NCBI RefSeq assembly: GCF_017591425.1
Contig: NW_024465655.1
Coordinates: forward strand, 681,501 to 745,500
DNA from: Ochotona curzoniae
Lineage: Eukaryota; Chordata; Mammalia; Lagomorpha; Ochotonidae
DNA length: 64,000 nt
Direction: 5' to 3'
Below are positions 21,101-62,411 of this stretch, piece by piece; the first letter of the stretch is position 1, and every line of letters starts with the position of its first letter. The notes beneath the pieces were generated by a model, which saw only the letters and a program-made list of their open reading frames with translations, did not search any database and had not been told where the DNA came from. A program made the translations under genes and the position numbers.

Positions 21101-24100
21101 GGTACAAGGTCTTGCCAGCCCCTCTTAGGGCAAAACCCAGGAGGAACCCAGAAGTGTCACAAAGAGGAACGCTAATTTTTATTTTAAAAAGGTTCTGTGA
21201 GCTGACACACTCAGAGTTCCTGGATGTTGCAACCTAACTGCACATGCTCACTGCACCACAGGCATTGCAGAAGAGAGGAAATTCCAGAAACAGAAAACTC
21301 CTGAACAGGGACGTGAGGTTAGCTCTCCAGGCAGCGTGGAGCTGGCACTGCCTTTCAAACCCTTAATACCACCCAAGGGTGCTGAGTCCTGGAACAGGGA
21401 AGTGGAAGCGTGGGAATCCAGAGCCATGCACTCAGCTCAGAAACAATGACGTCATTAAAAACCAAGAGTGCTATGTGATCACATGGCAAATACCTCCCCA
21501 ATCTATTTGGCTTTAAGAACAGAAGGTGTTAATACCTAAAAAGTTGTTATAGCTCAATAAAAAGGCAGTCCAATTTGAAAACAAGCACACACCTGAACAA
21601 ACATTTCTCTAAAGATACAGAAGCAAGCACATGAAGATATTCAACACTGTCAACCAGAGGGGAACGCAATCAGAAGGCGTAACGAACCAACACTTCACAC
21701 CAAGACAGCTACAACCACACAGACAGATGGTGACGAGTGTCTGAAGGGAGGCAGGGAAAGGGATGCTTACAAAGACAGTTGGGTGAAAATATAAAGTAGT
21801 GCACTCCCTGTTGGAAGCAATCTGGCAGTTCCTCAAAAGGCTAACCACAGAATAATACAGGATTTTGTACACACACATACACATGCTCTCCCACTTAGAA
21901 CACTTCCAGGGCAGGCAGGGAAGCCGAGTTCACGGATGCATGGATCCAAGCCCAGCTGTGCTGCCAGCTCCAGCTTCCTGCTGATATACCCCAGGGAGGG
22001 AGCAGGAGGGGACCCCAGAAACTGAGTCCCCAACACCTAGGAGGGAGACCCAGACTGAGTTACTGAATCGCAGCGTTGGCTTGGGTCAGCCGTGCTGATG
22101 TGGGCACTTGGAGAATGGACCAAGGAGTTCAAGATTTCTGTCTCTAGTTCTCGAAGTCTCAGATCAGTAAGCACATTTTGAGTTTTTAAAAGTCTGTTTC
22201 TTAGCTGTTTGCCAATCAAAGTGAGAGTAAAAAGCTGAGAGACATTCCATGTCTTTCAGGCAGTGGCTGTATTTTTTGCTATGTTTTGTGTATGTGCCTA
22301 AGGGATGTGTTTATGCACACACTCACACACAGGAAAGACTGATCAAATTACACAAAAATGGTTCTCATTACTGAAACCAGATAGCACATTTATGATATTT
22401 ATTTCTTATGTAATTTTACTTTTCTCTATGTTAAGCATAATGTTAAAGATAGATCATTTTTAAATCTGAGTACTAAAGTGAATAGTTAATGTCACTTCTG
22501 GTGTCAAAGTCACACTGTAATTTGCAGTAGAGCAATAAAACTTACCAATCTGAGACTCTGTTACTACCTCTTGGGTTACACACAAACTGGCATCTTCCTT
22601 AAGCAACCTGTTGGTCCGTGAAGCTTGCTTAAGATTGGGTTTCGGCCTGGCAAATCTGCTTCTCATTCTCAAATTACTGGTCATTTTAGATACTGCACTC
22701 CTAGATACAAAGAAAGAGGCAGAGAAAGTAACCAACCTTGCAGGACCTCTCTGTCTAGTACTTACACCATAACTGTCACCTGTCAGCATTTATACTGCCT
22801 ACACCTGTTCATTATTTTTTTTTTAAGATTTATTCATTTTTATTGGAAAGTCAGATATACAGAGAGGAGGAGAGACAGAGAGGAAGATCTTCCATCCACT
22901 GTTTCACTCCCCAAGTGAGCGCAATGGCCAGTGCTGCGCCGATCTGGAGCCAGGAGCCAGGAACTTCCTCCAGGTCTCCCACACGGGTGCAGGGTCCCAA
23001 GGCTTTGGGCCGTCATCCACTGCTTTCCCAGGCCACAAGCAGGGAGCTGGATGGAAAGTGGAGCCGCCAGGATTAAAACCAGCGCCCATATGGGATCCCG
23101 GGGCGTTCAAGGTGAGAACTTTAGCTGCTAGATCATCACACTGGACCCACAAGTTCAGTTCTTAATGCTCAAAGTATAAAGTAGTCATTTTACTAGAGGT
23201 CCTGAAAAGACCATCTGGACCAAGTCTAAGAAACAAACACTACATTTACTTTAACTTCACTGAAACTCCAAAGACATAAGAAACAACTCAGGCCTCTGCT
23301 GAACCTCTGGCCTGCAGGACATACAAGGTCGACAAAAATCGGTCTGTCAACTGCATAAAGGCCTTCAGATTCAATAAATCTACACCAGGCTAAGTTTTCT
23401 TTTTTTTAAGTTGATAACATTTTTTTAAATCTTTTTTTATTTTGTGAAAGGCAAACTTAAAGGCAAAAGCGAGAAAGATCTTCCACCTGCTATTTTACAC
23501 CCAAGTTGCTGCAATGGCCAGCACTTGGCCAGACAAAGACCAGGAACCCAGAGGCTCCTCTAGGTATCAGACATGCTGCAGGGACGCAAACACTTAGGCC
23601 ATCTTCTACTGCTTTTCTGAAGCCATTAAGTAGAACAAACTGGTCTCAAAATGCCCAAATGGGATGCTGGTGTTACAGACAGCAACTTGCCCCCGTAGGT
23701 CGCAATGCCAGCCCTGATAAATACATCTTAAGGAAAAAGTTATTTCAAAGGCAGAGTCAGAGATAGAAAGGGAGCTTCCACCCTCTGGTTCCTGCTCCAA
23801 AGCCAGCCGTGCTAGGGCCAGGCAGCAGCTAGGAGCCTGGAACATCTTTACGGTCTGCCACCTGGGTTCAGAACCAAACTCTTGAACCATTCCTATTGCT
23901 CTCCCAGGCCCATTAGCAGGAAGCTGGTTCAGAAGTGAGGCAGCTGGGACTGGAACCTGAGGCGTCACAGGGAACACCTTAACAGACCCCCAGGTGATAA
24001 GTTTGCATGGCCCAAGAACATGTTATAAATATCCAAATGACCCTTGGCAAAAAAAAAGATTCCCCACTCCCGCAATACATGCTGCTACAATTTTATAGGT

Positions 24101-27100
24101 GAACCATTAAACCATTAAAATAAAAACCAATCAATTCTTTCTTAAAAGGGTAAGAAGCCACCATTACCTATCTTATATTTATAAAATAAGAATTATTCAA
24201 AGCTATTCAGTGAAATGATGATGGCTTTTTAACTGCATGTACTAATTAGATATTAAAATAAACCTGGTTGGTGTGGCAGTTCCCTTGACTTTTTCCACTA
24301 GACCAACTTCTTCTCTCGTACTTTGCTCCTCCAACACAATCTTGTTTTCTTCAAGCGATTCAAGAGCTGTACTGGTGACAGGTGAAGCAAGACCCCGACA
24401 CTCAGCAACGACTCCGACATTGACATCATCTGGACTAAAGGGAGCATGGCTCTTATCCTCCAAATGAGCATCAGCAAGCACACACACACCTACTGAAAGA
24501 AAAGTCAAAAAGGAAGGAGAATTAAACTGATTCACTATCAACAGGTGTCCAAACAACACTTCTAACACTAATTGTAAATTTCTATAAAGTTTGCACTTTT
24601 TGGCTCCACATTTGAATTTATGATCTTATATGTATCTCATGACCTTTTTGAAGCTTAATTCTTACAGTCTGGAAGCTCAAGACTATTATATCATTCAACT
24701 GAGTCCTTCTGTTTCTTTCAGGAAGAGTAACTCCAGATGGATTTCAAGACTGTGCTTATTAATGATTTTCTAAAAACCTGTATTTTATGTTCTAGAGATG
24801 CGTCATGGCCTCTACCATAATCTTCTGCATCTGAGAAAGAAGTGCTAAATGTACAGATTATGAACCAGAGGCTTTCCCGGTAAATACATGGTTAGGAAAG
24901 AAAAGACTAACAGTCAAAATGAAGCGCAGGCCAGCCATTACCAGTCAAAACTGTTATTAAAAAAAAAAACAGAATTACCATGACTTTCCATTTCACGTAA
25001 TTAAAGATCCCAAGAAGCAAAGGCCACAGCTTCTGGGTTTAGCCCACTATTTAAAAGCCCGACTGGCCTATCTCTTGGCTTGATCCAACAACCTTGCTGA
25101 CTGTGACTGGCCTTCTAGATTGGCTCCTGAGGAAGACAACCCCAGCAACAAGAGTTACAGAGTTAAAGTACTCACTAAGCTTGGCCAACCAACAGAAGCA
25201 CAGCATCCACTGCTACTGCATCATCCATCTCAAGATGGCTGCCACTACACCTTAAGGAGCTGAGTAAAACACTGGATGGATCAATATGTGGATGCCATCT
25301 TTTCTGGAAAAAGTCAAGTCTTGTTTGCCACTTCAACAGCGAAAGGCTTGTAACTCACTCACTATGGGTCTAATTTCTAAAGAGTCAGATTTTTCAGGTA
25401 GGAATTAGGTTTCCCTCTTACCATCCCCCTGTTCGGCACCGATCTCCGATTGCAGCACTAGATCTCCCATTGTAAGCAAAGCTATGGCAGCTTCAGCACT
25501 TCCGTCATTGGTAGCTAGTGAGGAAACACGAGAACATGAAGACAGAACCGTCACCCAGGAAATGTTTACTAAAAAAAGATTGTTTAATTCAGGTGTTTTT
25601 CTTCTAGTAACAGTTTCTAAAATCTTCCATACCATCATTTCTGTTCCATTACTTCCTTATTAGGGCAGTGAACTGCTCAGGTTGTATACAAGTAAAGAAA
25701 TCATACAATGTTGGCATTAAATTCAAAGTAAACACTCTCATCTTGGTACATCCAGAGGGAATGCTGAACCAACCTTTGTTTATTAAACATCTGACTTTGA
25801 AACAGGCATCTAGCACAGTGGCTGAGCCATAACCTGGGATGGCCACATCCTGTTCTGGAATGCCTGGGTTACAGAACCAGCTCCACTGCAAACTCCAGCT
25901 TCCTGCTAACGCACACACTGGTAGGCAGCGGTGATGACCCAAGTATCTAGGTTCCTGCCACTCACTCAGAGATCCAGACCGGACCCCAGTCTCAGTCTCA
26001 CTGTTGCGGGCAGGAGGAAAGTAAGCCAGTGGATTGGTGACCTCTCTCTTTACATTCTTCCAAATAAATTTAAATTAAAACAAAAAAACCCTATCTTTGA
26101 ACTTGCCTTCTAAATTTACAGTCTAAAAATCAAAGTTTCTCTCAGCTGTAGGCAACTGCCTAGGTGGCATTCTACCCTGGCAAGTGTTACACTGCTGTGA
26201 CAAAAGCAGCCAACAGCTGGCAGGCACACCGGGCTTGGCTACTGCCAAATCCGTGTTAACTATACCAGTGTGCCAACACAATTGCCTATTCTATTTTTTT
26301 TTAAAGATATGTGGAGAAAGCAGGGGATGCCAGGCTGGGTGCTGCCCCAGACCCATGCCACAAGCTGTAACACAGTAGAAAGGCTGCAGATTGCACACGA
26401 CTAGGGGTCTGGGGACATGCTGGAGTGGGGTTACTGAAGGCACGTTTGACAGGGGAGGAGTGACTTCTGGGGGCTTCCACATACCAGGCCACTAAACTCA
26501 GAGATACATTGAGAGAGCACAGACTAGGTAGTTTAGAGGGGGAAATTGGTGGGCATGTTTGGGTCAAGCCAGGACACCAGCCAACATGGGAGACCTGGGC
26601 TGAGCTAAATGACATCACCCGCCATCTGCTGAAACATGTAAAGGCTGGGGCTAGGGGCATGCCTGGCTGAGCTGGGCAGTAGTACCCACCTGCAGATCTC
26701 AAAGCAGAGGGTGGCCCACATCAGCCTGGGCCACAGCATCCATCAGAACATGAAAGAACCAGATCTGGGGACAGATTCTATAGGGGACTTATGGGCTCAG
26801 CTCTGTGGACTGCATGAGAACTAGGGGTGGTAACAGGCCAAGCCAGGCCAGGCTGTAGCACCCGCTGGAACATACAAAGGACAGGACCAAGGGCAGACCA
26901 CACCAAGCAGGACCACCGAACCCACCTGAAAGCAGGAGATCTGGGTCTGGGGAAAGGCCATGAGGGGAACTTGGGAACTCCATTGCTAGGCTGCAGCGTC
27001 CCCTGTTGAGTGAGGCAGCCAGGGCTGGGGGCAGGCCAGGCTGGGATGGGCCCCAACACCTACCAGTTCAAGTGAGTGCCAGGACCTTGAAACATTCTTC

Positions 27101-30100
27101 CCCACACTGGGTCTCTAAGGCATCATGAAATGACCATTCCCATCCCCAGATACTGATGCGACTGACAGCAAGGAGCAACCCCCTCTTCTTCCCTCCGAAC
27201 CTCCCCACCCTTATACAAACAGGAGAAAAACAAAGGGAAATAAAGGAAGAACTGAACCATGTGTCCCAACCACCTACTTCTAGATCTCAACCCTTCCCTA
27301 CCATAATCTAAGGCCCACATTGGCCGTGCATCCCTCTCAACAAAGTCAACAACATTAAAAATAAACTTAAACTTAAAACATCAGAGTTTTTAACAGACAC
27401 TGTACTAACAACAGGAATCATTTTGTCCAATTTTTCAGTAAATTGATTCACTTACTATCACCATCACTAGATCACTGTGCTAGATTTAAAAAGGAGTTTT
27501 AGGAGTTTACTTGTTAACAATTACCTGGCTCATCTTGGGTATGTACACTGCTGGTCACTTCCTATGAGAGGAAAAGATAAGCATCATGTTAAGCCTCTTC
27601 CCAAATACGTTTTGCATCTTAAAGAGCACTGCCCTTGGGAGACCTGCAGCCTGTGCTGGAGCTACTCCAATCCCAATTTAGGACCCTGCTCATTGCCTGT
27701 GAGAGCAGCTGATGTCGGGCCCTGCTACCCAAAGAGGAAGCCCAGGTGAAGTGTCTGGCTCCTGACTCTGACCCGGCCTGGCCTGGCCCCAGCTGTTGAA
27801 GGCATCTGGAGAGTGAACCAGCAAACAGAAAGTCTATCAGTCTCTCCGTGTTTCAAATAGAGGAAAATAAACAGACACCTTTTTAAAAAGCACTGTATTT
27901 GGAGCTGGCGTTGTGATGCAGTGCCCATAACGCCTACCTGCAACACCAGCACTCCGTAAGGCACCAGTCCAACTCCCTGCTAACATTCCTGCAAAGCAAG
28001 AGCAAGAGGGCCCAAGTGCTTGGCCCCTGTGCCCACCGACATGGAAGAGCTGCAAGAAGCTCCTGGCTAGCCCGACCTTGATCACTGCGACTAACTGGGG
28101 AGCAGATCAGTAATGGAGGATTTTGCCCTCTCCTACCCCACCTTACAAAACAAATAAATCTAAAAAAAAAAAAAAAAAGCAGTGCTTTCTGTGCTTTCTG
28201 GTTATAACAGTGGGCATATTTTCCGCTTAGTTACAACATTTATAAAATTTCTTGAACAATCGAAATAAAAGCCAAATTATTTATCTCATTCCTAACTTTA
28301 CCTTTTTCTTCTATTACAAACACATTTTAATTATGACCATACTATTATGTCCATGTAGCATCCTTATTTTACTTTTCACAACAAAGAAAATCCTTCATCT
28401 CTAGTCATAATTTTTAGTTTTTACACAATGAAAACCAAGGCCTGAAGACTACTGCAATTCTTATACCATTAAACTTAAAACTTCATTTAATAAAGAAAGA
28501 AGCGATAGAACTTGGGGGCTAGAGCTGTGGTGCAGCACGTTAAGTGGCCACATGCGACAGTGGTGTCCCTCCCACATAGGCACTGGATCTTATCCAGATG
28601 ACAGCACTTTTTAACCCAGCTCCCTGCTAACAGCCTGGGCAAAGCAGCAGAAGACGGCCCAAGTGCTCAGGCCCCTGGAAACACGTGGGAGATCCACATT
28701 AAGTGCCTGGCTCCTGCCTTACACTTGGCTGGCTCAGACATGGCCAGTGCAGTCCCTTGGGGAATGGTTCAGTAGATGAAAAATAGCCCCTTCCCTTCTG
28801 TAACTCTTTCAGTTAAATAAAACTTCAAAAAAAAAAATCGTTACAGGACTAACAAGCCCGAGGCAACCTAAGGAGCTCCAGAGAGCAGGGTTCCAAGGAA
28901 ACCAGTGAAGTTAATTAAAAACAACAACAAACAGACACCTGGGGATGGGCCCTCAGCCACCCACCTCCTGAACTGCTCCCTGGAGCACCCACAGCCCACC
29001 CTGGAGTTCCTGAGCTCAGGGCCTGGCTCTGCCTCCAACTTCCGCTTCCTGCTAATGCACACTCCGGGAGGTGGCAGGTGTTTGGGTCCCTGCTACCCGC
29101 CTGTCTCACATTCCTGACTCTGGCTTAGTCCAGCTTTGTCACTGAAGGAATCTGGGGAGAGAAACACTGGATGGACACATCCCTGGCTTTACCTTCAAGT
29201 TTTTAAAAAGAAAAGACTCTGCAACATCATTTCAAGTCTCTAGAAATGGCCCAAAGGGCAAGAAGCAAATGAAGAAGCATCCCTTCTAGGGCCAGCAATG
29301 TGGTGCAGTGGGTTAGGCTGCCGTCTGCACGTGGGAGCCAGCTCATGTCCCAGGTGTCGCACTTCCAACCTACATTTCGGCTAATGTAGCTGGGAAGCAT
29401 GGGAGATCTAATGGCCTGGGGAGGTAGCTGAGGATGGCCCAAGTTCATGGGCTCCTGCATCCACGTAGGAGTCTCCAAGGAAGCTCCTAGCTCCCCAACT
29501 ATGGAGCAGTCCAGCTCCGGTGAGAGAATCACTGGGGAGAATTACTGGGGAGTAATTCTGACTTGGAAGTGAAATAAACAATTTTTTTAAGTACTCCAAC
29601 ACTTTTTATGATAAAAAAATTTCTGTTCATCATTTACAAAAAATATGAAAGAAAACACACACACAAAAAAAGCAACTGAATTTAAGTAATTTACATTTGA
29701 TAAGTTTCATGCAATAGAATTTTAACGTAAAACTAAGGATATTAAGAGGTCATACACTGGAAACAAACAAAAGAAACCAATGCCTACCAAATCAAATGTA
29801 TATGATTATTCATACGTAGATGAATAATTTTTACTGCTCACATGAACAACTCCACACATGAAAGAAGCCAGCTACAAAGTGTTTGTATAAGTCTCCAGGC
29901 ATTTGAAAGCAAATGGAAATTAAAAAAAAGAAGTCATTGAATTGAAGGCTTACAAGTGATGATGCATTCCCATTTTCTTCTTGTTTCATTTCCTGAGCTG
30001 TCACATCTGTGTTTGGGAGCTGAGGTTCAACAACCACGATGCATTCCATGTCTGGAACATTCACGGTAATCTCAAACTGCCAAAATAAAGCTTTATTATT

Positions 30101-33100
30101 TAATTATGGCATCCCATTGCCAGCAAAACAAAGCTTCATTTTCCACACAGGTGAAGCCAACCATTAAAATGAAGAAATAATCAACTCACACATGATTAAG
30201 AAATTCTTAACGTTCCATGAAAGCAATTCGGCAATCCTAAAACATTTGAAGTTTTTGAAAGTTCTGTGACAATTAAAACCTGCAAATAAGTTTCTCTCCC
30301 GAGTGCCTATCATATCATTTTCCACACATTCCATTCTGGCCCCTTCGGTCTGCTAACGTTTCTGGCGTATTTTGCAAAAGCTGAAATGCTGTGGGTATAA
30401 AGATACCGAATCTGGTAAGACAAAGCTTGGTCCCACCCTCAACAAAGTCACCACCCAAGAGAAAGAGACACGTAATCAACTAATTCTATACAGCTCTACC
30501 TGCTAAAGCAGGGATAAGCTGAAGATGCTTAAAAAGACATATCAACCCATTCCTGCACTGCGCTCATCCTAAGCCACAACCCCAAAGCCTGCACGATTCC
30601 TAACCCTTGCAACAGCCATGTAAAATACGAGGCTCATTAATCTGACAAAAGCTTTATCAGCTGAGCCTCAGATACACACAACACAGTCTGGCTTTTATTC
30701 ACCTACTAAGAGTATAAAACGTTGCATGATTCAGCAGAAAACATGAGCAAAGAGTTCATACAAGACTCTGCTTCGAGACACCACAGTGATACTCAGTATG
30801 TTCTCGGCTCACTCAGAAGCAAGGACAAGAGAAAGACCTTGGTAATGCCTGATGACTGGAATGAATTAAAAAGGACCAAGTGATCTGAGAAGATAACTAG
30901 TTTTCTGAAAACCTAACCTTAAAGAATCATACAGAGGTAGTGCCTTCTAAAAAGTTGCTTTATTCAAATACAATTCATCCATTGAAAGTGCTAAATTTAC
31001 TGTATTTAGGAATAACACAGATATGTGCAACTGGCACAATTTTATGGCATTTTCCTCACTTTAAAAAGAATCCCCACACCCATTAGCTATCACTCCCCCA
31101 ATGCCATAAGGCCAACCCCAAAATCTAGGTCTTGACTTTTGTTTATAAATGTAACTACAGATTCAGGCAATCTGCTCATTACTTAAACGGCCTTCTTTCC
31201 CATTCTTTCTTTCATCAAGTTGAACTGGGATATCACAAGAATGCAGATATGAAATCCGGTCCTCTCCCAGTCATCAGAACAGGCAGGGAAAGAGAACAAT
31301 GGCTGCTAGCAAGGATGCTGGGACACTGACACCCTTACATGGTGTCTGTACGCATTACCATGTGATCCTCTAATTCCCACTGAAGACACAACTCCAAAGG
31401 GACTTAGAGCAGGGATTCAAAGTGGTATCCCTATAGCCGTGTCCACAGCATTACTTTCAATAACCAAAGGAGCAGAAGCTACCCAAGTGTCCACTGCTAG
31501 ACAGATGACTCAGTAAAATGTTACACACAAACGAACAGTAGCTACTCTTAAAAAAAAGAGGGGGGAAGGGGGCACCCCAAATTATACGACACAAACCTTG
31601 AAAACATTATGCTAACTGCAATGCGCCAGTCAAAATGAACAAATACTAAGTGAGTCCACTTGGATGAAGCTGCTAGACCAGCCAGATTCAGAAAGACAAA
31701 AAGGAAACAGGACTGGTCAAAGGTGGGGCAATGGGAATTAAAGCTTATTGGGTAGACTTCCATTGTGCGAGACAAGGATTCTGTGAATGGATGGTGATGA
31801 TGGCAGCATAACAAAGTGAATGTACTTAACGCCATTGAAATGTGCACTGGAAAATGGCCAAGATGCTAAATCCTACACAATAGATACTTTACTACAACAT
31901 TTTCCCCCTACTTCCTCTTTTTTACTGGAAGGCAATTTACAGAGCGAAAGAGAGGGAGAGATACAGAAAGATAGTCCGTCTCCTGGCTTATTTTCCCAAA
32001 TTGCTAGCTCAGTTGGAGCTGTGCCGAGCTAAAGGCAGGAGGCAGAAGCTTCTGAGCTTCCTACATGAGTGCAGGGCCAAGGATTTGGTCCAAGTTCTAT
32101 AGCTTTCTCAGGAGCATGGCAGGGAGTCGGATCAGAAACAGCTCCCAGTACTGAAACCGATGCCTTAGGGGATGCTAGTGTCACAGACATAATGTCAACC
32201 ACTACCACAATTTTTTTCCAATACAGGGGCAGGGTGGAGGGCAGGGGCAGAGGAGGGAGGGCCTTTCCACCTTCACTAACTACCAGAACTCAGCCTGAGC
32301 CCACAAAAAGGATGAACAGAAAGTAGACTAAGGGGCCACCACATACAAACACACACAGAGCTCTGTCATTGTTCACTGGTGCCGACGGCCTCGCTGGGCC
32401 TGCGTCGGAAGGGCTGAGTCATCAAGGGAGGTCACCTTAACCCACCGCTACTGATTCTTCATGTTCTCCACTGGGCTCGAAACAAATTATATTTAGTACA
32501 AGTTATTTTGAGAAGCAACTCTTCAAATCTTAATAACCAGTAACAGAAGATATCAGAGAAAGAGGAGGGGAAAAAAGCAAGGGAGATACAAGTGCTAAGG
32601 AGTCAAGAAAAACCAAGTACCTCTTCCATCGTTTCCTCAATCTGAGCAGAAACAGGCTCGGGAGACCTGAGACCCAAGGGCACAAACACGGGAGCCTTGT
32701 TGACTTCCTCCGGGGCGAGATGGCAGGGCTCTTCCTCGGTGAAGTCAAAATCCTCAGCATCATCTTCCTCTTCTTCGTGACCAGCCCGCAGAGTCACCAG
32801 TGTGGACCGGGATGTCTTGGGCTCCCTCTTGGAGGTCCTACCCCGGATTCGCTTGCATCCGCGTCCTCTGCTGACATTTGGCTTGATGTTCCTTTGCATT
32901 CTCCTTTTGTTATGACCCATCTTACTCTCAGAGCCAGAAGAGACGGCAAGCGTTCGATCAGAAGCAGTCTTACAGTGATCGGATTCATTGGTCAGTTGTG
33001 GACAGCTAAATGATCAAAAAGACAACACGGTCACATATGCACAAAAATAATTGTAAACTTTTTACTTCTTTACTTTACTTGAAGGAGACAGAGCTTGTCT

Positions 33101-36100
33101 GCTGGTTGTTCCCCAAATGCTCACAGCAGCCAGCTCTGGGCTAACTTGAAGCCGGGAACCCGTAACTCAACGCCAGGTCTTCATGTAGGCGAAAAGGCCC
33201 CTAACACGTGGGCCTCAGCTGCCGCCTGCCAGGGTGCACGTCAGCAGGAAAAGGAACGGAGCACAGACTCGCCAGGACCAGGTGCAGGCACGCCAACGCT
33301 GAATTAACGCTACATCAAATACCTCCACCACAAGGAATTTTAATGAAAACCAAAAAAGGTAATTCCTTTTCCAGTCATTCAAAGAAAACACCTACCACCC
33401 ATTCTTTTAAAGCCTTATGCTATGAGGCGAGTAAACAAATTAACAAGTAGCTATCAGTTCTTCAAACAAAGTGAACGCTTAGTTATATAATCATAAACTT
33501 TTCATGGTGAATTTTTAATTCTAGGCTACGTTTTCACTATGAAATGGAAGTGGAGATGAAATAAACAGCTGAGTCCGACGCTAAAGTCCTTGCCTTACAT
33601 GTGCTGGGATCCCATATGGGCACCGGTTCTAATCCCAGCAGCTCCACTTCCCACCCAGCTCCCTGCTTATGGCCTGGGAAAGCAGTCGAGGATGGCCCAA
33701 AGCCTTGGGATCCTACACCTGTGTGGGAGACCTGGAGGTGGTTCGTGGCTCCTGGCTCCAGATCAGCACAGCACCGGCCGTTGCAGTCACTTAGGGAGTC
33801 AATCATCGGACGGAAGATCTTCCTCTATCTCTCCTCCTCTCTGTATATCTGACTTTGTAATGAAAATAAATAAATCTTTTTAAAAATTTAAATAAATAAA
33901 TATTAAGAGAAAAGCACTACTGAAAACTCCAAGGAAAAGGGATGTGGGCAGGCACTGTGGCACAGTGAGTAAAGCCGCCGCCTGCAGCGCCAACATCTAA
34001 CAGGGGCCCTCCAAGAGCAGGCTGCTCCTCTCCCGATCCGTCTCCTGCTGATGTGCCAGGGAAGGCAGCAGCCCATGACCTCAATGTGTGGGTTCCTACA
34101 CCCAGGGGAGGCTCCTCACTCAGCTCTGGTCTGACCCAGCCCAGGTCCTTGCAGTCAATTCAGGAGTTAATCAGATGATGAATTCAGTCCCTCTCTCTCT
34201 CTCTCTTTGCCTCCCTCACTCTTCCTGTGTAACTGTTTCCAATAAAGAAATAAACTTTAAAGAAAGGAGAAAAAGGGAAGAAAGACATGGAACCTACAAA
34301 TACTGAATATGGAATCACAAAGTGATACTGATTTATATTACTGGATAAACAAATTAGACTTAAAAGCAAAAAAAGGCAGGAGGCAGAGAATCTCTGGGAG
34401 TTTGGAGAGCTCAGGCTCCTCCCAGCTTATCAGAGAGCCACGCAGGCAGGGCCCACTCCCGTCCCCAGCCCCAGCTGAAGGAGCACGCTCGTTACCTTGG
34501 CAGCATGATTCACACCACCTTATCAGGCTTCTGCTTGTCCCTGACGGACAACACAGAAACTGTAACCCTAGGGAAGAAAAACAATCTTCCTAGGGATTAA
34601 ACAAACAGGCTGTAATAAAAAAGTATGAGAAATAGGAAAGAAATAGACTTGTGATGAAAATCAACCCCCGCCTGTAGTAACAAATTATCGTTTCAGTCTG
34701 CCACTGAATTAAAGCAAGACGTCTACAAGGAGAGATGACTTCTCTGTCTTGGATCCCAAGCATGAGGTAAACTGAGCATTACCTCGCTGGCGTCCTGAGA
34801 GGCTGGCTCTCAGCAACGGGGTGCGGGCAGCCATCTCCGCCAGCTCCCAGCCGAGTATCCCGCTCAGCCACACTGGACTGCGCAGCACTTGTGTCGTCCT
34901 TTCTCGTGCAAACCTCCAGAGATGTCAGGAACTCGGCCTTCTCCTCAAATTTAAGCAGAAATCACTAACATTACTATGGAAACAAGCTCTGTGTAAACAT
35001 ACGGCTTGGTAGTTTGACCTACACCACTAAGCTTTTATCCACATCCACAACTGATTGACTTCTACATTCTTATACTGCTGTAAATTCATCCCTTTCCATG
35101 AAAATAGTTACAATACAATAATCACGACAGCATTTTATTATCATTTTCCTTCGTGATCCTAACAAAACAGAGCTGGCCGACAAGCAGCAGCTTCCCCCAG
35201 CTTACCTTGGGAAGCAGCCGGTGGTCGGCCGCTCCAAGCTGCTGGGCTCCAAGCTGCTGGGCACCAAGCTGCTGGGCTCCAAGCTGCTGGGCACAAGGCT
35301 GCTGGGCACCAAGCTGCTGGGCACAAGGCTGCTGGGTACCAGGCTGCTGGGCTCCGAGCTGCTGGGCTCCAAGCTGCTGGACACAAGGCTGCTGGACACA
35401 AGGCTGCTGGGCACAAGGCTGCTGGGCTCCAAGCTGCTGGGCTCCGAGCTGCTGGGCTCCAAGCTGCTGGGCACAAGGCTGCTGGGCTCCAAGCTGCTGG
35501 TCTCCAAGCTGCTGGGCACAAGGCTGCTGAGCTCCAAGCTGCTGGGCTCTGAGTTGCTGGGCACAAGGCTGCTGGACTCCAAGCTGCTGGGCACAAGGCT
35601 GCTGAGCTCCAAGCTGCTGAGCTCCGAGTTGCTGGGCACAAGGCTGCTGGACTCCAAGCTGCTGGGCACAAGGCTGCTGGGTACCAGGCTGCTGGGCTCC
35701 AGGCTGCTGGGCTCCAAGCTGCTGGTCTCCAAGCTGCTGGAAACCAGGCTGCTGGGCACAAGGCTGCTGGGTACCAGGCTGCTGGGCTCCGAGTTGCTGG
35801 GCACCAGGCTGCTGGGCTCCAGGCTGCTGGGCTCCAAGCTGTTGGTCTCCAAGCTGCTGGGCACAAGGCTGCTGGGCTCCAAGCTGCTGGGCTCCAAGCT
35901 GCTGGGCACAAGGCTGCTGAGCTCCAAGCTGCTGGGCTCTGAGTTGCTGGGCACAAGGCTGCTGGACTCCAAGCTGCTGGGCACAAGGCTGCTGGGCACC
36001 AGGCTGCTGGGCTCCAGGCTGCTGGGCTCCGAGTTGCTGGGCACAAGGCTGCTGGGCTCCAAGCTGCTGGGCACCAGGCTGCTGGGCATCAGGCTGCTGG

Positions 36101-38996
36101 GCACCGTCTTCGGGGCTGCTCGCCTCACGCTGTTCGGTTGTGTCTTTTTCCACCTCTGGCTCCTCTTTCTCACACTGTGCTGCTCCCAAATCCGGCTGAG
36201 TTGTTTGGAATTTCTCTTTTATCAATTGTTCAGGACTAGGAACATACAGCTTATTTTCATGTCTAGAATGAAGCACAAATCATGTTGAAGAACAAAAATT
36301 CTGAAGGGATTCTGATCCCTTGTTGATGCAACAGCTGTTAAATCAAACAATTCCGGATACAAACCAATTCTATGCTCAAACGACTATAGGGAAATTGGCT
36401 ATAAAACCAAGCATGTAAAATGAAACGACACATTACTGATATGAAAGAAAGAACATAAAAGCTTTTACAGCTTCCATTTTCTACAGAGCCCAGGGAACTG
36501 TGATAAAATTACATTAATCTCTTTTGTTTTTGGCTTACTTTCAGTCACTTATTTGGCATGTAGCTTCATGCTGCTTTAAGTAAGTTTCAAAAAATAAAAC
36601 TAGATAACTCAAGAATGCTAAGTACCTAAAGAATTTCATAACTGCGCTTTGAAACAAATGCCATGAACTCAGCTTCAAAACACACACAGTGGCCACAAGC
36701 TGTCCTGGACCAAGGGCAGCCTTCAGGACGAGCCGTCTCCCACCCGATGCCCGGCAACTCAGGGCAGCTCTGCGGACAGCCCGGGCCACAGGTCTTCAAG
36801 GTGGCCCTCCGCCTGCCCAAGCAGACTCTTCCAGAGGAGCCCTAGTTTCCTGGAAAATATTTCTAACAGCTGGCAAGGAACTCAACTAAGAAGTTTAAGC
36901 ACTAATAGAAACTTGGATATTCATTAAAAAAGAAAAAAAATCTGGGGTTTCTACTTTGAGTTATTTGAAAGATATGTATTAAAAAAACTAATCCTACAGG
37001 ATGTTTTAAAATAAATTACCTGAAAGAGGAAAGTGGATGGTAGTGAAGAAGTGCACAGGAAGTTCTAAGCTATGACACTGACTAATATATTGCAGTACAG
37101 GCTAATGTATTTGGGCAAACAAATTTAACTACAAACTGTTTACAGTCAAATGCGCTTCTGCAAAGTTATTTAAGAATAAAATATATACGTAAGCCCAAGC
37201 TGCCATTGAGCTCAAAAGGGACAACAAAATGTAGGGACATTAAAAGTTAATTATATTCACAGTATTTAGCGATGATTCCTCTAGTCACGGCACAGCTGAC
37301 AGCTGCAACAGGCTCTGAGGATTTAAAACAGGGGAAGAAGCAGGAGTGGGGATGGACTGCCCTACAGGAAGTTCAAGAGTTAAATCTTCCTCATTAAGAA
37401 AAACAAAGGCTGAGCATAAAAATGCTTCTTTTAGGAGACAATACCTGCGTAACTGCAGGAATCTGCTAGTCTGAAAGTCATAAATCCTAAGAACTAAAGT
37501 TTAGTAACGAAACTTCTGATTTCACTTTGAGACAGTCATTTAAATCTTCTATTTGCCTGACAATAAATTAAAACATTGGAAGAGGCTGAGCCCAAAGGTC
37601 CCTAGCGTTTTAAAGCCCATTCGGTAAAACTCACAGCGGCCCTGCAAAATCGACCCTCGCTGCCTCTTGCCCAGGCACTCCTCCGCCCCAGCTGCTCTGC
37701 TGCCCACGGGCCGCCTCCCTGCTCCTCCGTCAGGCCAGGCCTACACCTGCCTGGAGATCTGCACAGGGCTGTGCCTTCGCACCTGCAGAGCCCCTCGACT
37801 CGCTCCTTTACCTCCTTCAGGTCTTCTCATCAGTGGCACCCTTTCAACGAAGCATGCTCTGCTCACTGCTAATTAAAAATTACACCAATCACAATACTCC
37901 CTCCCCCTCATGTTTCTGCACTAAATCATTTCTTAGTTATTCAACTTATTTCTCATTTATATTCTGTTCTCCAAATTAGAATATAACTTTCACAATAAGA
38001 ATTTTTTGTCTGTCTATTATCAGCACCTAAGATAGATACAAGCGTCTTGAATGAATTTTAGTGACAAAATTCTCTAGTTTTATTAAGACCACAAAGGCAC
38101 TGAATTATACGTGAAAACTGGAGGTGGATGTTTGGCAGAGCAGTCAGGACATCTCTTGAGATGTCACTGTTCCATTTCAGAGTGGGTAAGGGTTGTTTGG
38201 GTTTAGCTGCAGCATCAGCTGGCAGAAGCTGGCACTGGGGGCTAGTTCAGTCAAGTCAAACCACAGAACTATCTGGAGAGTGCATAATCCGGGAGGGGGA
38301 GAGGCCTGGGAGGGAAATAGTGGGCTCATCCCTCTTGGGTTACCACTTCTACAGCAGGGCACGAAAACCAGGACAGGGGCTGGGGTGGAATGGGATGTGG
38401 GACAGACTGGACTAGTCTGCTACACATACTGGCAAACCAAGGCAGGAGATGGGTCTGGTGGGGGTTATTTTGGGTTGCTCTGACTAGGCTGCAGCTCCCA
38501 CTGGTTTATGCGAGGGCCGAGTATGTGCTGGGCAGAGCCAGGCTGGACTGCAACACCCATTGGTTCCAGTGGAAGTCGGGGCTGAAAACAGAATCAACCC
38601 AGCGATCGCAACCACCAGCTGTTTGGGGCCATGGACTGAGCCCTGTAGCTGTGCAATTCTTACAGTATTTGAAGAGGTAAATTTAAAATAGTTTCAAAAT
38701 GATCAACTTACACTTTCACTACATCTTCAAGATGCTAAGTAGCATAAAATCAACCATGCAAAATTTCAACATGTCTCTTCGAAAAATTTTGCGCTTTTCT
38801 CAGAAACAGCACACTCACCTCATCTCTTCAGCTAGAATATTTATTTGGTTAACTTGAACATTTTCTGGAAGAACCACATCATGACCTTCATTTTCATAAA
38901 TTCTGCATTCTGAAACTTTGCAGGACACAGCTTCAATTTCAGCTCCAATTTGTGAATTTGCCTACAAAGATAAAACCATATTACTTTCTTTTAAGG

Positions 38997-39028
<32 letters not shown>

Positions 39029-42000
39029 TTTTTTTTTTTTTAAAGATTTATTTTTATTATTTTTTCATTGGAAAGGCAGATATACAGAGAGGAGAGACAG
39101 AGAGGAAGATCTTCCGTCCGATGATTCACTCCCCAAGTGAGCGCAACGGGCCGATACTATGCCGATCCGAAGCCAGGAGCCTCTTCCGGGTCTCCCACGC
39201 GGGTGCAGGTTCCCAAAGCTTTGGGCCGTCCTCTGCTGCTTTCCCAGGCCACAGGCAGGGAGCTGGAAGGGAAGCGGGGCTGCCGGGATTAGAACCGGCG
39301 CCCATATGGGATCCCGGGCGGCAAGGTGAGGACCTTTAACCACTTGCGCCACCGCGCCGGGCCCATTTTGTTTTGTTTTTAATGAAAGGCAGAATGAAGG
39401 CGAGAGAGAGAAGCAGGGTAGGCGTAAGCACCGCTAGTTTATTACCCCAGATGTCTGCAGCAGGCGGCACAGGGCTGGCCGAGCGAGGAGCATGCAGACA
39501 CGGCAAGTGTGCCGTCAGTGGGCGGGATGCACTAGCACGAGACTGGACAGAACGCAGAATAACCAGGACTCCCACTGCCCTCAAAGTGCAGGCGCAAGCC
39601 AACACGCAACAATCGCACCCCAGTTCTGTCACCTTTTTAATAGCAGAAAATACTTTCTAAATTATTTCAATCACTAAAAAGGGTATTTAGTTTCTTAAAA
39701 TTAAGAACCAAACGGAGCATTCAACATGCATGCTCTGTTGCCAAAACAATATTACTTAAAGAAAGAGAAAGTTTGAAAGATTATTGAAGAAACGCACATG
39801 CTGCTTTAAGAGCACAAGTTATTCACTGCAAAATAAAAAGTAACTTCACTGCTTTTTTTTTAAATGCTTTGGAATCAAATAGAGATCTTAATCATTTTAA
39901 ATCTAGACTTTGTCCTGATAAAGTACTAAAAAAAAAAAAAAACTGGACATTTTAAAATATGTGTCCATATGTATTTAGATATATAGAGCGAGACAAAAAA
40001 AATTATTATGGAGAGGAAAAGACAGAGCGAGAAGTGAGTTCACAGGGAGAAAGACCAAGAGTGAGATGCCCCCCGCCCCCACCTGCTGTCACACTCCTCA
40101 AATGCCTGGTGATGGCCAGCTTGCGGATGCACTGGCCCACGCTGAAGCCAAAAGCCAGCAACTGATTTCAGGGCTCCCATGAGTGGACAGGATACAGGAG
40201 CCCAGCTTCCTAACTGACCATAACAACCTCCTCAGTAGGAGGCTGGAATCAGCAACCAGGGCTGAAATTACTCGGTCACTCCAATACGTAAGGTAAGGCT
40301 AGCTGCCCTGGCCTGCCCTGCACCTTGCAGGTGTCAACACTACAACGTGGACAGGTGTTCTACTACGAAAAGAATATATCACCAAGAAATTGATTCTACT
40401 GTCAAGGCAGTATAGCATTATAAACCAAAAAAATATTTTCCTCCAGATTTTTTTTTTTAAGATTTATTTATTTTTATTGCAAAGTCAGATATATAGAGAG
40501 GAGGAGAGACAGAGAGGAAGATCCTCTGTCCACTGGTTCACTCCCAAATTGGCCACAATGGCTGGAGCTGAGCCAATCTGAAGCCAAGAGCCAGGAACCT
40601 CCTCTGGGTCTACCACGCGGGTGCAGGTTCCCAAGGCTTTGGGCCGTCCTTGACTGTTTTCCCAGCCACAAGTAGGGAGCTGGATGGGAAACGGGACCGT
40701 CAGGATTAGAACCGGCACCCATAAGGAATCCCAGCTGGTGCACGGTGAAGACCCTAGCTACTAGGCTACCGTGCCAGGCCCTAATATAGCATTTTGTATA
40801 TGGCTGAACATTTGTATATGACTGAACATTTCTTAATAAATAACTTCAACAGTTCAGGAAAAAATTATTTTAACTTGCAAAACACAGAACAACAAATCTG
40901 AAACAAAACTAGATACATTATATATTCACTGAGTGGAGTAAGTGTCAGATAACTACATTTCAAATCAAATCTGAGTGATCACTTGAGATTTCACTAAAAC
41001 TCACCACACACAGGGACCTAAACTCACCACACACAGGGACCTAAACTCACCACACACAGGGACTTCTCGTTAGCTTTATCATTTTTTAATACTGCTGTTT
41101 CTTGCTGAATCGCACTTCTGGCTTCACCTTTTTGGATCTCTCTTTGTGCAGCCTTTCTTAAATTTGGTCTGGGTCTCTGAAGTCGGCCCCTTATTGGTTG
41201 AACAGTTTGGGTAACACTTTCCTTTGTTTCTTGCTGAATAGCATTTTTACTCTGGATTCTAAACAGGTAGACAGAGAGAAGTCATTTGACTACAGAAAGT
41301 TGAGAACCGCAATGAAAATAAAATTTGCATCTTCTGTAATAAACTTTCCACGAACATATATCTTAGTTCATTAAGAAATGTTTAACTCTCAGGAGGTAAC
41401 GGTAACAGATCTCACACTCAGTGTAGACTAAAGCTACAGGGGCAGGAAGTAGAATGTGGATCGCCAGCGAAGCAAAGTAAAGAATGCAAAACCTAACGCT
41501 CAGTGGCTAGAGGCTCGGCTACAAGGATGGAGACAGCTGTAGAGACGGATGGCGGTTAACAACTGCACAACAATGGAAGTATACGTAAAGCCACTGGCCT
41601 AAACATTCCAAAATGTGTGAAATAGTAAATATCACGTGATGTTTATTTAAACATTCTTTCAAATAAATACAGAACTTAATTATATGCTTTTGTAAATGAA
41701 GTGCCTTGCATAAAACATAACACAGCCAATAATGAGATAAGATAGCAAGCATTAAAAGATTTCAAACTCATAAAAATAAATCTTAAGAAAAAGATCTGAA
41801 ACTCAGTTTGGTTTTTCATGCCTAACACATCAAGAAAAACAAAGCAAGTATTACATTCACTCTTAAAATACATCGATACTTTTTAATGAAATGAAGAACT
41901 ATGACACAGAAGTATCTTGGTGACTTAGATATTCGAAGAAGCATCACTGCTTACCCACTGGAAGTGATGGCATCATGTGGCTGGATTTCTGCTGACTGAG

Positions 42001-45000
42001 CGCTCTCTGCAGGCTCGGAGGAGGCTGGAGGCGCCAGGCCCTTTGCAGGCTCTGACCAGGGCAGCCTTGCACTGGCATCCTTTTCTTTTGATGTCATGAG
42101 GGAAGCCACAGCCTAGAAGGCAGGAGAAAAATATCCATCCAGCGTTGGTAAAAAGAAAAAGGAAATAAAAACTTTCATGTGCTATTAGAATAAACTGATC
42201 TAGACTTTGCAGAGGGCACCATGGTAGTGGTAGCTACCAGAATACTACATTACTAGTGTTTTTCTTTCTACAAATGTGCTTTCTCAGGATCCTCCAGCAC
42301 AGGAGACTCCGCAGTCCAGCTGCTGTGGATGCGAGCATCCCAGAGTGGGTCCACACAGCTCCCAGTACAACTGGGGCTCAGACACAGCTCCTGCACAGGC
42401 CTGCTCCTGCACAGAATCACGGGCAGGGTCCAGCGGGAGCTCCTGGCTGCAGCCCAACTACGATGGGCATCAGGAAGTAAACCAGCAGATGAAAAACCAC
42501 TCTCTTCCTCTCCATTACTCTCTCAAGTTAATACAGAGAATCTTTATTGCAACACACATGCACACACTAAACACCTATGCAGAAATGTAAAGACAAAGAT
42601 GCTTATTGTGGCAATTTAAAAGATTCCCCCAAAAGGGGAGAAAAAAAACCAAGAAAATTGGAGAAAAGACAAATCAGTAGAAGACAGATAACTTCAGTTG
42701 TTCACAATGCATTACTATCCAGCCTTTAAATAAACTTCATACTAATCCAAAGATGTTCACAATTTTGTTCTAAATGGAAATCCACGACAAAAGACAATGC
42801 CATTTTTGTAAAATTAGAAAAATATTCGTACTGTTTTATCATCTGTAAATGTACACGTGGAAAAGTATGGGTGCATATATCCCAAACTGGTATCATTATC
42901 CTGGACTCGCAACTTTAAGAACATGTACTTTTCTAAATTGACATTTTTATAATCAGAAAAATAAATAATTTATATTTCATAAATTTATCTGTTATAAGCA
43001 TTGGTACAGAGTAAAGGATACAGTTATTTCCAGACACAAAATGAGAACTGCAATTCTAAAAAGTACTTTTTAGGTAAAAGATACTCATAAATTGAGCAAT
43101 TACATTTCACTTCTGCTATGGTCCAAATTAATGAGGTATATCTCTACTTAACTCATATGTGTCTTCCAACTTTTCCTCTCTCATTTGTAACAGAATAAAA
43201 TAAAGAAGGACTGTTATTGTCTCTCTTTGTTTTAACCACAGAGGCTCATACTACCAAGATCATATTGTTATGTTCACACAAGCCAGGCCTTGAACCGGAG
43301 CCAAGACCTTACCCCGACACACCAAGACTCTGACACAAACAGTGAGGGACAAAGGGGCATTTGACGCACCGGAATAGCACTGCACAAGATAAAAATTATT
43401 TGGTTCAATGTAATCCAGGCAGTTTTGGTGGGCTGATCACACACGCACACACACAAAGTGCCCATCTTACACAGCACTCACGTGTTGGCAAGGGGGGCTG
43501 CGAGCTTGCTGACCGTCCCGCGGTGCCGCACCGGCCTCCGCTGTGCCAGTCTCGGATCCCTCCCCAGGTACACACTTGGCTGCCTCCGCAGCCTCTCTCT
43601 TTAACACTGCTCTCGCGAGGTTTGGTTTGGGCCTCTTGAATCGACTTCTCACAAAGGATGCCGGTTTAACTTCGAGTGGCTTCTGCTCTTGAGGAAGAGA
43701 GATGCTTTTGGAACAAGGATTACCAAACGTTAGAATGAACTGCAGGGCGCTGGGAGGAGCATCTTGGACAATCTTAGAGAAACGACAGTCAACGTTTGCT
43801 TCTACAGAAAAACAAACAAAACTATCTGGTATATTCTAAAGAAACATGAGTTACAACCCAGTCACAAGCCTTGGAATCACACTTTGGGCCAAGGAAAATG
43901 GTAGTCTGTCAAATTTGTACTGACTTGGGAGCAGGTGTTAAACCCAGTTCTGATGTGCGGGTAATTCTTACCACCCCGTCAGGCTGACCCCACTTCTCTC
44001 CTCCAGTGATCAAGATGATGGACACTCCCCTGTACAGGCTCTGCTTTGAAAGCTCACTTAGCTTGACACAATCCACAAGCACAACTGTGCAAGCTCTTCC
44101 TTGACAAGCACACAGAGGCACACACACACCTTAAGGTGGCATCTGAAAATTGCTTCACAGCATCTGGAGGGTGCAGCTCCCGCTTGTCTTTTTCAGTAAC
44201 GTCGGCAGAAATCTGTGAGCGGGTCTCCAAGTCAGGGAAGTGACTCGATCCTTCCTTCCCGGAACTTCTGTTTTCTTCCGCAGCCATTGAGCACATCTCC
44301 GACAGTCCTTCACTGCCAGCGCTCTAGCACGGTTACCGGAAATTACACATCAGCACACAGACAGATACAGGTCTCAGAGCATGCCAGACAACAGACTCCA
44401 AACAAAAGATGACTAGACACTAAATACTCTCCTTTGAAGCTTGAAGAGCTTGTTTTTTCATTTTTTAATAAAATAAAACTTACTACAAGTTAAATCTAGA
44501 ATGCAGGAAAATCTTCCTTTGATAGATTCATCACCATTTTCCAAACCACAAATGCCATTATCTATGAAAACACTTAAAGGAAAAAAGTTCAAGAACATTC
44601 TAATGGCATGAATTTCAAGAAAAAAGACCTATTTTTTTTTTCATTGAAAAGGCAAATATACAGAGAGGAGGAGAGACAGAGAGAAAGATCTCCTGTCCAA
44701 TGATTCACTCCCCAAGTGACTGGACGGCCAGAGCTGTGCCAATCCAAAGCCAGGAGCCAGGAACCTCTTCCGGGTCTCCCCACGTGGTGCAGGGTCCGGC
44801 TTTGGGCCGTCCTCGACTGCTTTCCCAGGTCACAAGCAGGGAGCTGGATAGGAAGCGGGACTGCTGGGATTAGAACCAGCAACCACATGGGATCCTGGCG
44901 TATTCAAGGCAAGAAGATTAGCTGCTATACCATGCCAGGCCCGAAACTAGCAACTTTTAACAAAAATTTATTTGAATAGCAAAGTGGCACCGAGGCGATG

Positions 45001-48000
45001 TGACAGCCCGAGTCAGTCAGGGCCAGGGTTCAATAACAAAGTGAACAAGCGCTGCATGGGACCTATCAGGCTGCTGCGTCCCATCCCAAAGTGCCAGGAT
45101 TCAACACCCAGCTCCGGCTCCCAACAGCAGCCTCCTGCGATGCGGACTGAGGGAGGCGGTGGGAGTGGCTCCAGGCACTGCATGCCTGTCCCACACATGG
45201 GAGACCTAGGGTGAGTTCCTAGCTCCCACATTCATACATGGCCTGGCAATGCCACTTGAGAAATGAAACACTGGACAAGAGTTCGTTCTTTCTCTTGCCT
45301 TTCACAAGGATTTTATTTTTAAAGATTTATTTCTTTTTACTGGAAAGTCAGATTTACAGAAAGAAGGAGAGAAGGAAAAGATCTTCCACTACTGGTTCAC
45401 TCCCAAGTGGCTGTAACAGCTGAAGCTGAGTAAATCCGAACCGAGGAGCCAGGAGCTTCTTCCAGGTCTCCCATGTGGGTCCTGGGTCCAAAGGCTTTGA
45501 GTCATCGACTGCCTTCCCAGGCCACAGGCAGGGGGCTGGATGGAAGTGGAGCAGCTGAGACACAAACCAACGCTCATATGGGATCCTGGCACATGTAAGG
45601 CAAGAACTTCAGTGGCTAAGCTACCACACTGGTCCCTCAACTGAATCTTTTAAAATATTAATTTTTTTTAAGTTAAAAAAAAAGTGAAGTAGAATAGGGA
45701 AAAAGATAAAGCAAAAGCAGATACTGATATGACCAAAAGCATAATTAACATGATTGCAGCTAATGGTGTAATTCAGTTCAATTTCCAGCATTCAGTTCAA
45801 ATTCTTCCATCTTTTTTTAATGGAGAAATGATTTTATTAAACTACACTGCGGCCTTCATCCATGCTTTTTAGGATGATGCGTCCTCCAGCTTTTTAGCTA
45901 AAAAAGTTAACTTCAAAATGACACTAAGAGTAACTTGAGGGGAGAGAAGGACCTGGAGTTGTGGTGAAGCATGTTGTCAGATTGCTGGTCCCAGTCAAGC
46001 TGCTCTGCTTAAAAGTCAGAGTCCTGCCAATGAGCCAAGGAAGGCAGCAGCAGATGAGGCCCTGCCACCCACAGGAGAGACCACGACGGGGCGACTGCCT
46101 CCCGGCTGTGACTGTACCCAGCCTTGGTTGTTGCAGAAATGAAGGAAGTGAAAAAAAAAAAAAAAATAGGGCCCAGCACGGCAGCTTAGCAAAGTTCTTA
46201 CCTAGCACATGCCAGGATAACTTATGAGCGCTGGTTGTGTTCCGGCTGCTCCACTTTGCTTCCAGCTCCCTGCCTGTGGCCCGGGAAAGCAGTCGAGGTC
46301 GGCCCAAAGCTTTGGGAACCTGCACCCGCGTGGGAGACTCGGAAGAAGCTCCTCGTTTCAGAATGGCTCAGCTCTGGCCATTGTGGCCACTTGGGGAGTG
46401 AGGCAGTGGACAGAGGATCTCTGTCTCTCTTCCTCTCTGTGTATCTGACTTTCTAAAAAAAATCCTTAAAAACAAAGTCTTGGGCCCAGCGCGGTGGCGC
46501 AGTGGTTAAGGTCCTCGCCTTGCACGCCCGGGATCCCATATGGGCTCCGGTTCTATCCCGGCAGCCCCGCTTCCCATCCAGCTCCCTGCCTGTGGCCCGG
46601 GAAAGCAGTCGAGGACGGCCCAAGGCTTTGGGACCCTGCACCCGTGTGGGAGACCCGGAAGATTCTCCTGGCTTCGGATCGGCACAGCATCAGCCGTTGT
46701 GGTCACTTGGGGAGTGAATCATCGGACGGAAGATCTTCCTCTCTGTCTCTCCTCTCTGTATATCTGCCTTTCCAATTAAAAATAATAATAAAAATAAATC
46801 TTCAAAAAAAAAAAGTCTTTCTTCATTTCTCTAACTCTCCCTCAATGCTCTGTCTTTCAAATTAACAGATTTTTTTACAGGTTGGTGGTGCTGTCTCATA
46901 GTGATGAGAGCGCCACTTGGGATGCTGACGTGACGTATCAGAGCAATGGCTCTGCTTCCCACTGCAGCTTCCTGCACACGCACACTCAGGAGACATATTT
47001 CAAGCGCCTGGGCCCTGCTCCCGTGTGCAGACATCTGAGACCAGAACCAACGCACGGAACGTCTCTCCTTGTCTTTCATACAAACAGAAATGAGTAATAA
47101 ATTTAAAAAAATTCTTAATTGCTTTTCCATAATTAAAAAGTTTCATAAGATTTAAAAAAAAAAAAAAGAGTACAGTTTCTGCACAATCCTAAGACAGAAA
47201 TTTAAGGCTCGGAAGAAAGAGGGGAGCAGAAGGCATGCTGAACGCACTGGTGAGACTCCTGGCATGATTTTACAGGCTTTCTTTGTAGACTCCCGAGAGC
47301 TATGTCGAGGACAGGACATACCTCTGGCCCTGGGGGAGGCACGGTGGCTCTCCGGTCGGCACTGCTGCTCCGTAGAGAATCCAACTCAGCTTCTCCTGCG
47401 GGGCTCGTCTCCTCGGGCTTCTCCTCCCCAGCTCCCTCAGGAACAACCATGTCCTCGGAGGGTCTCTCCTCCAAGGGCCCTGCTCCTCCAGTCCGCTCCC
47501 ACGTCGCCCCTGCGTGCTGGGCAGCAGTTAGCCCTCCTGGTACCTCTTCTGATAGGGGAATGTCTTTTTTCCCATTTTCTTCCAAATGAAACTCCATTTC
47601 CTCACTGGCCTCCAGCAGTACATTTTCCCGTTGGGAAACTTCTCCAACTCCTTCTGGATCTGTTTCCATGTCACCTGTAGCTGTGATCCCCTCAGGGGCC
47701 TTGGTCTGTGTGGACAACTCTGTTCCTTCCAGAACTTCCTCTGTTTCCTCCATGGCGTCAGTCATCTCTGGTAACATCTCACTCGGGGGCCCTTCTCTTT
47801 CAATGCGTTTCAAATCTGCCTCCGTGTCAACTGTCACTGTGAGCTCCTCTGGGGTGTCTTCCTGTGGGGGTCCGTCTCCCGTGTGGGCATCCCGCACAGC
47901 CGTGCCTGCGCCCTCGGACACCTCCTCCCTGAGCGAAGTCTCTCCTGCAGTCATTTCTGAGTGCACTTCCATCTCTACAATGACGTCATCCACTTCTGGC

Positions 48001-48681
48001 ATTTTCTCCCTTGGAGAGATGATGCTTCCTCCAGCTTCTCCTGTATGTGACTCCAGTCCCTTCGCAGCAGAGACCTCCACCAGTACCTCCCCGCTTGGCA
48101 AGCTGTCTGGTCTCACAGTTTCTCTCAAAGATGCTGTCATGTCCTCAGAGACAAGAATCTCCTCGGGGACCACTTTGTTTGAACAAATTCCTCTTCTTGC
48201 AGCTCCTCTCACTATATTTGGCTTGGCTTTCTGAAATCTAGTCCTTTGACTGGGAACTTGTTTGAGTATATCGGTTTCATTATTCTCTTGAACGCTGTTT
48301 CAAAAGAAGATACATAAATTTAAAAAATGGTCAATTGAAGACATGCTGATGGAGTAGTTACTACAGAAATATCAGAAGCACTCAAGTTAAAAAAAAGATG
48401 GGCCTGACACAATGATTCGATTAGCTAATTCCCCCCCTTGTAAGCGCCGAGATGCCATATGGGTGCCGGTTAATGCCACGTCGTCCCGGTTGCAGCCCAA
48501 CTCCCCGCTTACAGCCTGGGATAACAGTGGAGAACGGTGACAGTGACTGAGCCCCATACCCACGTGGGGGACCCGGAAGAGCGTCTAGCTTCACACAGGC
48601 TCAGCTTCACCAGATGGGGGAGTGACCCAGCAAATGGGAGACCTCTCTCTGTCTCCCCTTTTCTAACTTTCAAATAAATTT

Positions 48682-48715
<34 letters not shown>

Positions 48716-62374: not shown

Positions 62375-62411
<37 letters not shown>

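Follow-up and report, generated by a model that had tools for sequence, protein, structure and literature searches.

Two proteins with coding minisatellites, involucrin and MUC1, contain arrays of short in-frame units, with a Gln-Gln core in involucrin, that differ in copy number between lineages and that have grown from a short seed. Changes in unit number are rare among the tandem repeats of human proteins, according to one survey (PMC3995336). Tandem repeats also occur in human BDP1, a component of the RNA polymerase III initiation factor TFIIIB, whose C-terminal extension is described, in PMC5526994 and the structure entry 8ity_W, as carrying acidic units of 55 residues. Here a 64,000-nucleotide stretch of the pika Ochotona curzoniae (termed the window; assembly GCF_017591425.1, contig NW_024465655.1, positions 681,501 to 745,500) is analyzed, within which a different exon of the same BDP1 extension holds an array of pentapeptide units that shows no sign of having been derived from those 55-residue repeats. 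This array is a real, in-frame, lineage-specific coding minisatellite of a core transcription factor.

The array consists of 58 uninterrupted tandem units (36102-35233, minus strand; 870 bp; consensus GCCCAGCAGCTTGGA, encoding AQQLG), all 58 of which are exactly 15 bp long, and it contributes 290 residues to the BDP1 reading frame with neither a stop codon nor a change of frame. A preliminary description of this DNA had placed 59 copies at 35224-36108 (885 bp), adding about 295 residues; the assignment to the BDP1 frame, the unbroken reading frame and the glutamine content of about 40% hold, but the copy number, span and residue count do not: with units read as xxxQQ, the last of the 59 would be LGAAD, without QQ, and the 885-bp span includes flanking bases on both sides. 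The encoded residues, in peptides such as AQQPCAQQLGAQQ, comprise 116 Gln (40%), 46 Ala, 38 Gly, 30 Leu, 28 Pro, 17 Cys, 5 Val, 3 Thr, 6 charged residues (among them two Arg and no Lys) and a single Phe, the sole aromatic. At the DNA level there are 17 unit types, with a mean pairwise identity of 84%, and their translations include AQQPG, AQQPC, VQQPC, DQQLG, TQQPC and AQQLR, among others. Every unit retains QQ, while the remaining positions vary (A/V/D/T/F, L/P and G/C/R/D), codons 1, 4 and 5 showing both silent and replacement changes. Only 6 of the 116 Gln codons are variant, each by a synonymous change from CAG to CAA; because five of these six precede an identical CTC, and the silent changes may thus amount to as few as two events, this synonymy is weak evidence for selection.

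Traces of how the units were copied are visible in their order. Units 9-14 are identical to units 35-40 in the AQQxx register (the same blocks are numbered 8-13 and 34-39 when the register is shifted). A candidate period in the unit order, at a shift of 23, barely exceeds the 95% shuffle limit (0.286, against 0.273). Tandem Repeats Finder (threshold 50) assigns the array a score of 1080 at periods of both 45 and 75 and of 208 at period 15. The open coding frame is, by itself, weak evidence for coding, because a second minus-strand frame across the array is likewise stop-free; the third has a single stop. In its unit length, which lies between 10 and 100 bp and is divisible by three, and in the location of all 58 units within a predicted exon, the array conforms to a coding minisatellite.

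That exon (35206..36262, minus strand; 1057 nt) begins with one nucleotide that completes a codon and ends in phase 0, in agreement both with the preceding exon (38819..38961, minus), which ends in phase 2, and with the following exon (34783..34943, minus), which starts in phase 0 with EKAEFLTSLEV. Its splice sites are intact, as had been proposed: under simple weight matrices, the acceptor TTCTAG/A scores 1.8 and the donor AAG/GTAAGC scores 7.0. Modelled skipping of the exon shifts the frame, yielding RRRPSS and a stop after six codons; given this and the presence of the site in all of the 143 retrieved proteins described below, the exon is probably constitutive. The idea that splicing within the exon excises the array was rejected, as the strongest internal donor, located in the left flank, scores 1.1 and the strongest within the array -2.2, compared with 7.0 for the actual donor. 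Scores of internal acceptors go up to 1.7, which is near that of the real acceptor, and the three best of these (35733, 35388 and 35373) would break the frame.

The identity of the gene, as given in the preliminary description, is borne out by homology. The left part of the array exon matches human BDP1 with an E-value of 7e-10; when the array is left out and the neighbouring exons are joined, the match extends over 292 residues (E 5e-77), and the C-terminal exon region, with one repeat unit kept, matches at E 2e-33. In human numbering the array falls beyond residue 1716, and in its place human BDP1 has HLLQK, in agreement with the gap of about five residues given in the preliminary description. 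The flanking-exon match, together with MCCC2 next to the gene, marks the window copy as the BDP1 ortholog.

To place the array in an evolutionary context, 143 distinct BDP1 proteins were compared (the best 120 of 323 hits in one search and the best 120 of 350 in another, both admitting lengths of about 900-3600 residues); the names shown are those of mammals, none of the listed entries is named as a pika, and many entries are isoforms or close relatives rather than independent cases. In every one of the 143, the hare included, the site is short, so that copy number differs among lineages. Anchors flanking the site lie 46-50 residues apart in 142 of them and 56 apart in one sloth, versus 334 in the window, and the distance from PED to EKAEF is about 15 residues elsewhere versus 300 here. 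At the site Lepus europaeus has PEDNILQPGDSDTQLLLK and Lemur catta LEDNLLQQGDSDTQFLLK, whereas the window has PEDG-[58 units]-AADHRLLPK; the commonest forms elsewhere are QKGAS (23/143), QPGDS (22/143) and QQGDS (21/143), and QQ occurs in 42 of the 143 proteins, including those of lemurs, bats and a rhinoceros. Because the hare and all other retrieved proteins have the short site, a lineage-specific expansion, as first proposed, is supported by these comparisons. Its edges suggest its source. At the left edge (36088..36114, minus), which reads PED-G-AQQPD, the first unit, alone among the 58 in having a final Asp, lines up by eye with the ancestral LLQQGD; at the right edge (35206..35232, minus), AADHRLLPK aligns, again by eye, without gaps to the leporid DSDTQLLLK. 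Since the first unit resembles the ancestral QQGD and the right flank aligns gaplessly, about one ancestral pentad (DN-LLQQG-DSDTQ) appears to have become 58. Searches using the array exon alone as a query yielded no related sequence among 195 candidates at E 0.001, and literature searches found no paper on BDP1 with Ochotona and nothing on the array among the matches listed.

The array is probably best explained as a coding minisatellite enlarged through duplication of its units within a disordered tail, where it would serve as a flexible spacer, tolerated rather than selected. The seed would have been a single ancestral pentad bearing CAGCAG and thus Gln-Gln, and slippage or unequal exchange would have enlarged it; with a 15-bp unit, each added copy would have preserved the frame. 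Expansion may have been possible as basal transcription does not strictly require the tail, a point made in Gouge 2017 (PMC5526994); a recombinant BDP1(1-470) protein and a U6 assay with recombinant BDP1 are described in Dergai 2018 (PMC6004067). Because the array follows residue 1716, in a tail on which basal transcription does not strictly depend, its likeliest effect is a longer, flexible and tolerated tail: it would add to TFIIIB a predicted disordered, Gln-rich and nearly uncharged spacer of 290 residues, altering mainly length and flexibility, under relaxed rather than favouring selection.

Several considerations weigh against this explanation. The same paper that deems the extension not strictly necessary for basal transcription considers it important for regulation, and a 1-484 construct without the C-terminal part is reported there to be less active, although the region concerned lies well before the array (Gouge 2017, PMC5526994). 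A stop-loss variant that adds 11 C-terminal residues has been linked to human deafness (PMC3846559), so added BDP1 residues are not always neutral. Elsewhere among BDP1 proteins the site is nearly constant in length, an argument that its length can matter; the retention of QQ in all 58 units could also be explained by selection; and inclusion of the array in the BDP1 protein is predicted from the exon model. Nor is disorder firmly established: a single-sequence AlphaFold model has a mean predicted local distance difference test score of 40.7, with nearly all array residues below 50 and no structure in the array, which is in line with disorder but, coming from a single sequence, is weak as proof.

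Protein-wide rates bear on how much constraint the gene has experienced. In a tree of the window protein and 29 of the 143 others, the pika sequence is sister to Lepus and two leporid-like entries (support 1.0), a placement that fits a pika as the likely source; certain translated stretches of the window also resemble lagomorph C short interspersed elements (SINEs). Its branch in the tree measures 0.51 substitutions per site, compared with about 0.14 between that node and Lepus; this acceleration was measured on BDP1 alone, and a lineage-wide speed-up could give the same signal. The non-repeat part of the array exon is 61% identical to hare, where hare and lemur are 85% identical. That exon also contains the motif RxRFQKxKPNL, a copy of RxRFxRPKPN, in which 8 of 15 consensus residues survive, fewer than in any of the seven other copies compared (11-15 each); hare keeps 12 in its array-exon copy. 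This decay and the low identity suggest relaxed constraint on the array exon.

A long branch might also be expected of a decaying pseudogene or duplicate, as might a conserved SANT-side exon that is 85% identical in the window where hare and lemur are 98% identical. The gene was modelled, from homology and simple splice scores, as 27 exons running from the SANT-region exon to the stop codon (6020..62947, minus strand), some others not having been found. Phases agree at 21 of its 26 junctions, with donor 24264 taken in place of 24263; mismatches occur at 58611/54227, 52811/50166, 43482/41258, 20698/20465 and 15149/10377, and would leave room for a frameshift between those exons, though they are taken here as missing exons or wrong choices of site. 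Against decay, the junctions in phase include both of those of the array exon, none of the 27 exons contains an in-frame stop (openness having been one criterion in choosing them), and the first two SANT-side exons are 94% and 85% identical to hare. Furthermore, the first exon of MCCC2 (residues 1-43, E 6e-15) lies downstream at 1585..1713 on the minus strand. MCCC2 is the neighbour of BDP1 in the human gene order as well, and given this neighbour the window copy is the syntenic BDP1 locus. A pseudogene or duplicate is therefore extremely unlikely.

BDP1 contains a further array that is likewise in frame (7362..8021, minus strand). Lying within a modelled exon at 7329..8181 (minus), it comprises ten 66-bp units of 22 residues each, resembling QETRQEPCDALPAPSVSAGAQH and 78% alike, at a position occupied by about one unit in human and hare; its coding frame alone is stop-free (0 stops, versus 3 and 10 in the others). 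The spacing of the C-terminal anchors around it is 100-117 residues in 134 of the 143 proteins (the other nine could not be scored), versus 307 in the window, so that, as compared across these proteins, this array likewise occupies a length-constant site. Two other repeats were observed in the gene. At 40997-41063 a perfect 23-bp repeat of 2.9 copies spans the donor of the BDP1 exon 41258-41051 and duplicates it, with equal scores at 41051 and 41028; and at 47248-48294 lies an exon that matches the human 55-residue repeats and that here apparently has fewer and more diverged units.

A second array in frame also bears upon whether the length of the first is an artefact, namely a repeat mis-sized during assembly. 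Tandem arrays are error-prone in assemblies, and a single assembly was used here; yet 17 DNA unit types, a uniform 15-bp unit and in-frame flanks on both sides weigh against such an error. An error in length is possible and a wholly false array is not plausible; that the array's length is an artefact is, overall, very unlikely.

Both arrays might instead have arisen through high local recombination that, via GC-biased gene conversion, also drove AT-to-GC replacements. The replacements do show such a bias: among 389 on the window branch, 188 are AT-to-GC and 49 GC-to-AT (63 are ambiguous, 52 multi-step and the rest GC-neutral), compared with 31 and 26 among 81 on the leporid side (16 ambiguous, 2 multi-step, the rest GC-neutral), a difference that is significant for unambiguous replacements (Fisher p 0.0003). 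Similarly, the GARP/FYMINK ratio is 2.01 in the window versus 0.81-1.38 in the 29 others. However, strong biased conversion predicts high silent GC, and GC is 44.6-44.7% at four-fold sites and 44.8% in introns, which sets strong conversion back as a sole driver. With ordinary silent GC beside biased replacements, simple relaxation and strong biased conversion each fall short of a full explanation, and recombination as the common cause is distinctly unlikely.

Selection for a functional change--that is, for a Gln-rich scaffold that alters partner binding by BDP1 or clustering of TFIIIB--would fit the retention of QQ in every unit, an array length far beyond the range of the other proteins, the fast evolution of BDP1 in this lineage and the expansion of a second array within it. 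In the sticker model of condensation, aromatic residues act as stickers, and with one aromatic in 290 residues the array offers few; moreover, residues other than QQ vary freely, and the decayed motif of this exon points to relaxed constraint. Selection of this kind is unlikely, and the effects on condensation, stability and partner binding that had been suggested earlier are not supported by a sequence with one aromatic and six charged residues and a structureless, low-confidence model.

The array was also compared with recognized repeat families. Members of the Pentapeptide repeat family PF00805 follow an A(D/N)LXX motif and form a beta-helix; this fold was rejected, as the array has no match to the family at E 1 and the low-confidence model has no strands. 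A polyglutamine tract expanded from CAG triplets was rejected, the longest Gln run being two. Prion-like domains are Q/N-rich, with aromatic spacers and low charge; the array has 40% Gln and low charge but no Asn and one Phe in 290, as judged from composition. Pfam hits to Extensin_1 (39.9 bits, cut-off 105) and HC2 (22.9 bits, cut-off 40) are sub-threshold and composition-driven, and Rfam detects no family at threshold within the window.

A broader possibility, tentative and rather unlikely, is a concerted remodelling of pika BDP1, in which rapid evolution, decay of one of the repeated RPKPN motifs and the two arrays would together have produced a TFIIIB tail peculiar to this lineage; conflict with SINEs transcribed by RNA polymerase III, or a recombination hotspot, may have been the driver. 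If such remodelling is real, pika BDP1 would be a natural test of the function of the BDP1 tail. In any event, the second array and the acceleration of BDP1 raise the interest of the first, and two arrays at two length-constant sites of one fast-evolving factor provide a natural experiment on how variable this tail can be.

As a coding minisatellite, the array is a known kind of element; it is its place and context that are unusual. The VHL N-terminal repeat (4wqo), also pentapeptide-like and from a mammalian protein, gives a weak match (E 0.06), but it consists of a few acidic, GxEEx-like copies and there is no evidence of homology. PRDM9 zinc fingers change rapidly in unit number, as stated in Schaper 2014 (PMC3995336) and as proposed here for BDP1, though the BDP1 array has neither a folded unit nor a known ligand. 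Finally, whereas involucrin and MUC1 are structural or surface proteins, the host here is a general transcription factor, which is an unlikely place for 290 new residues.

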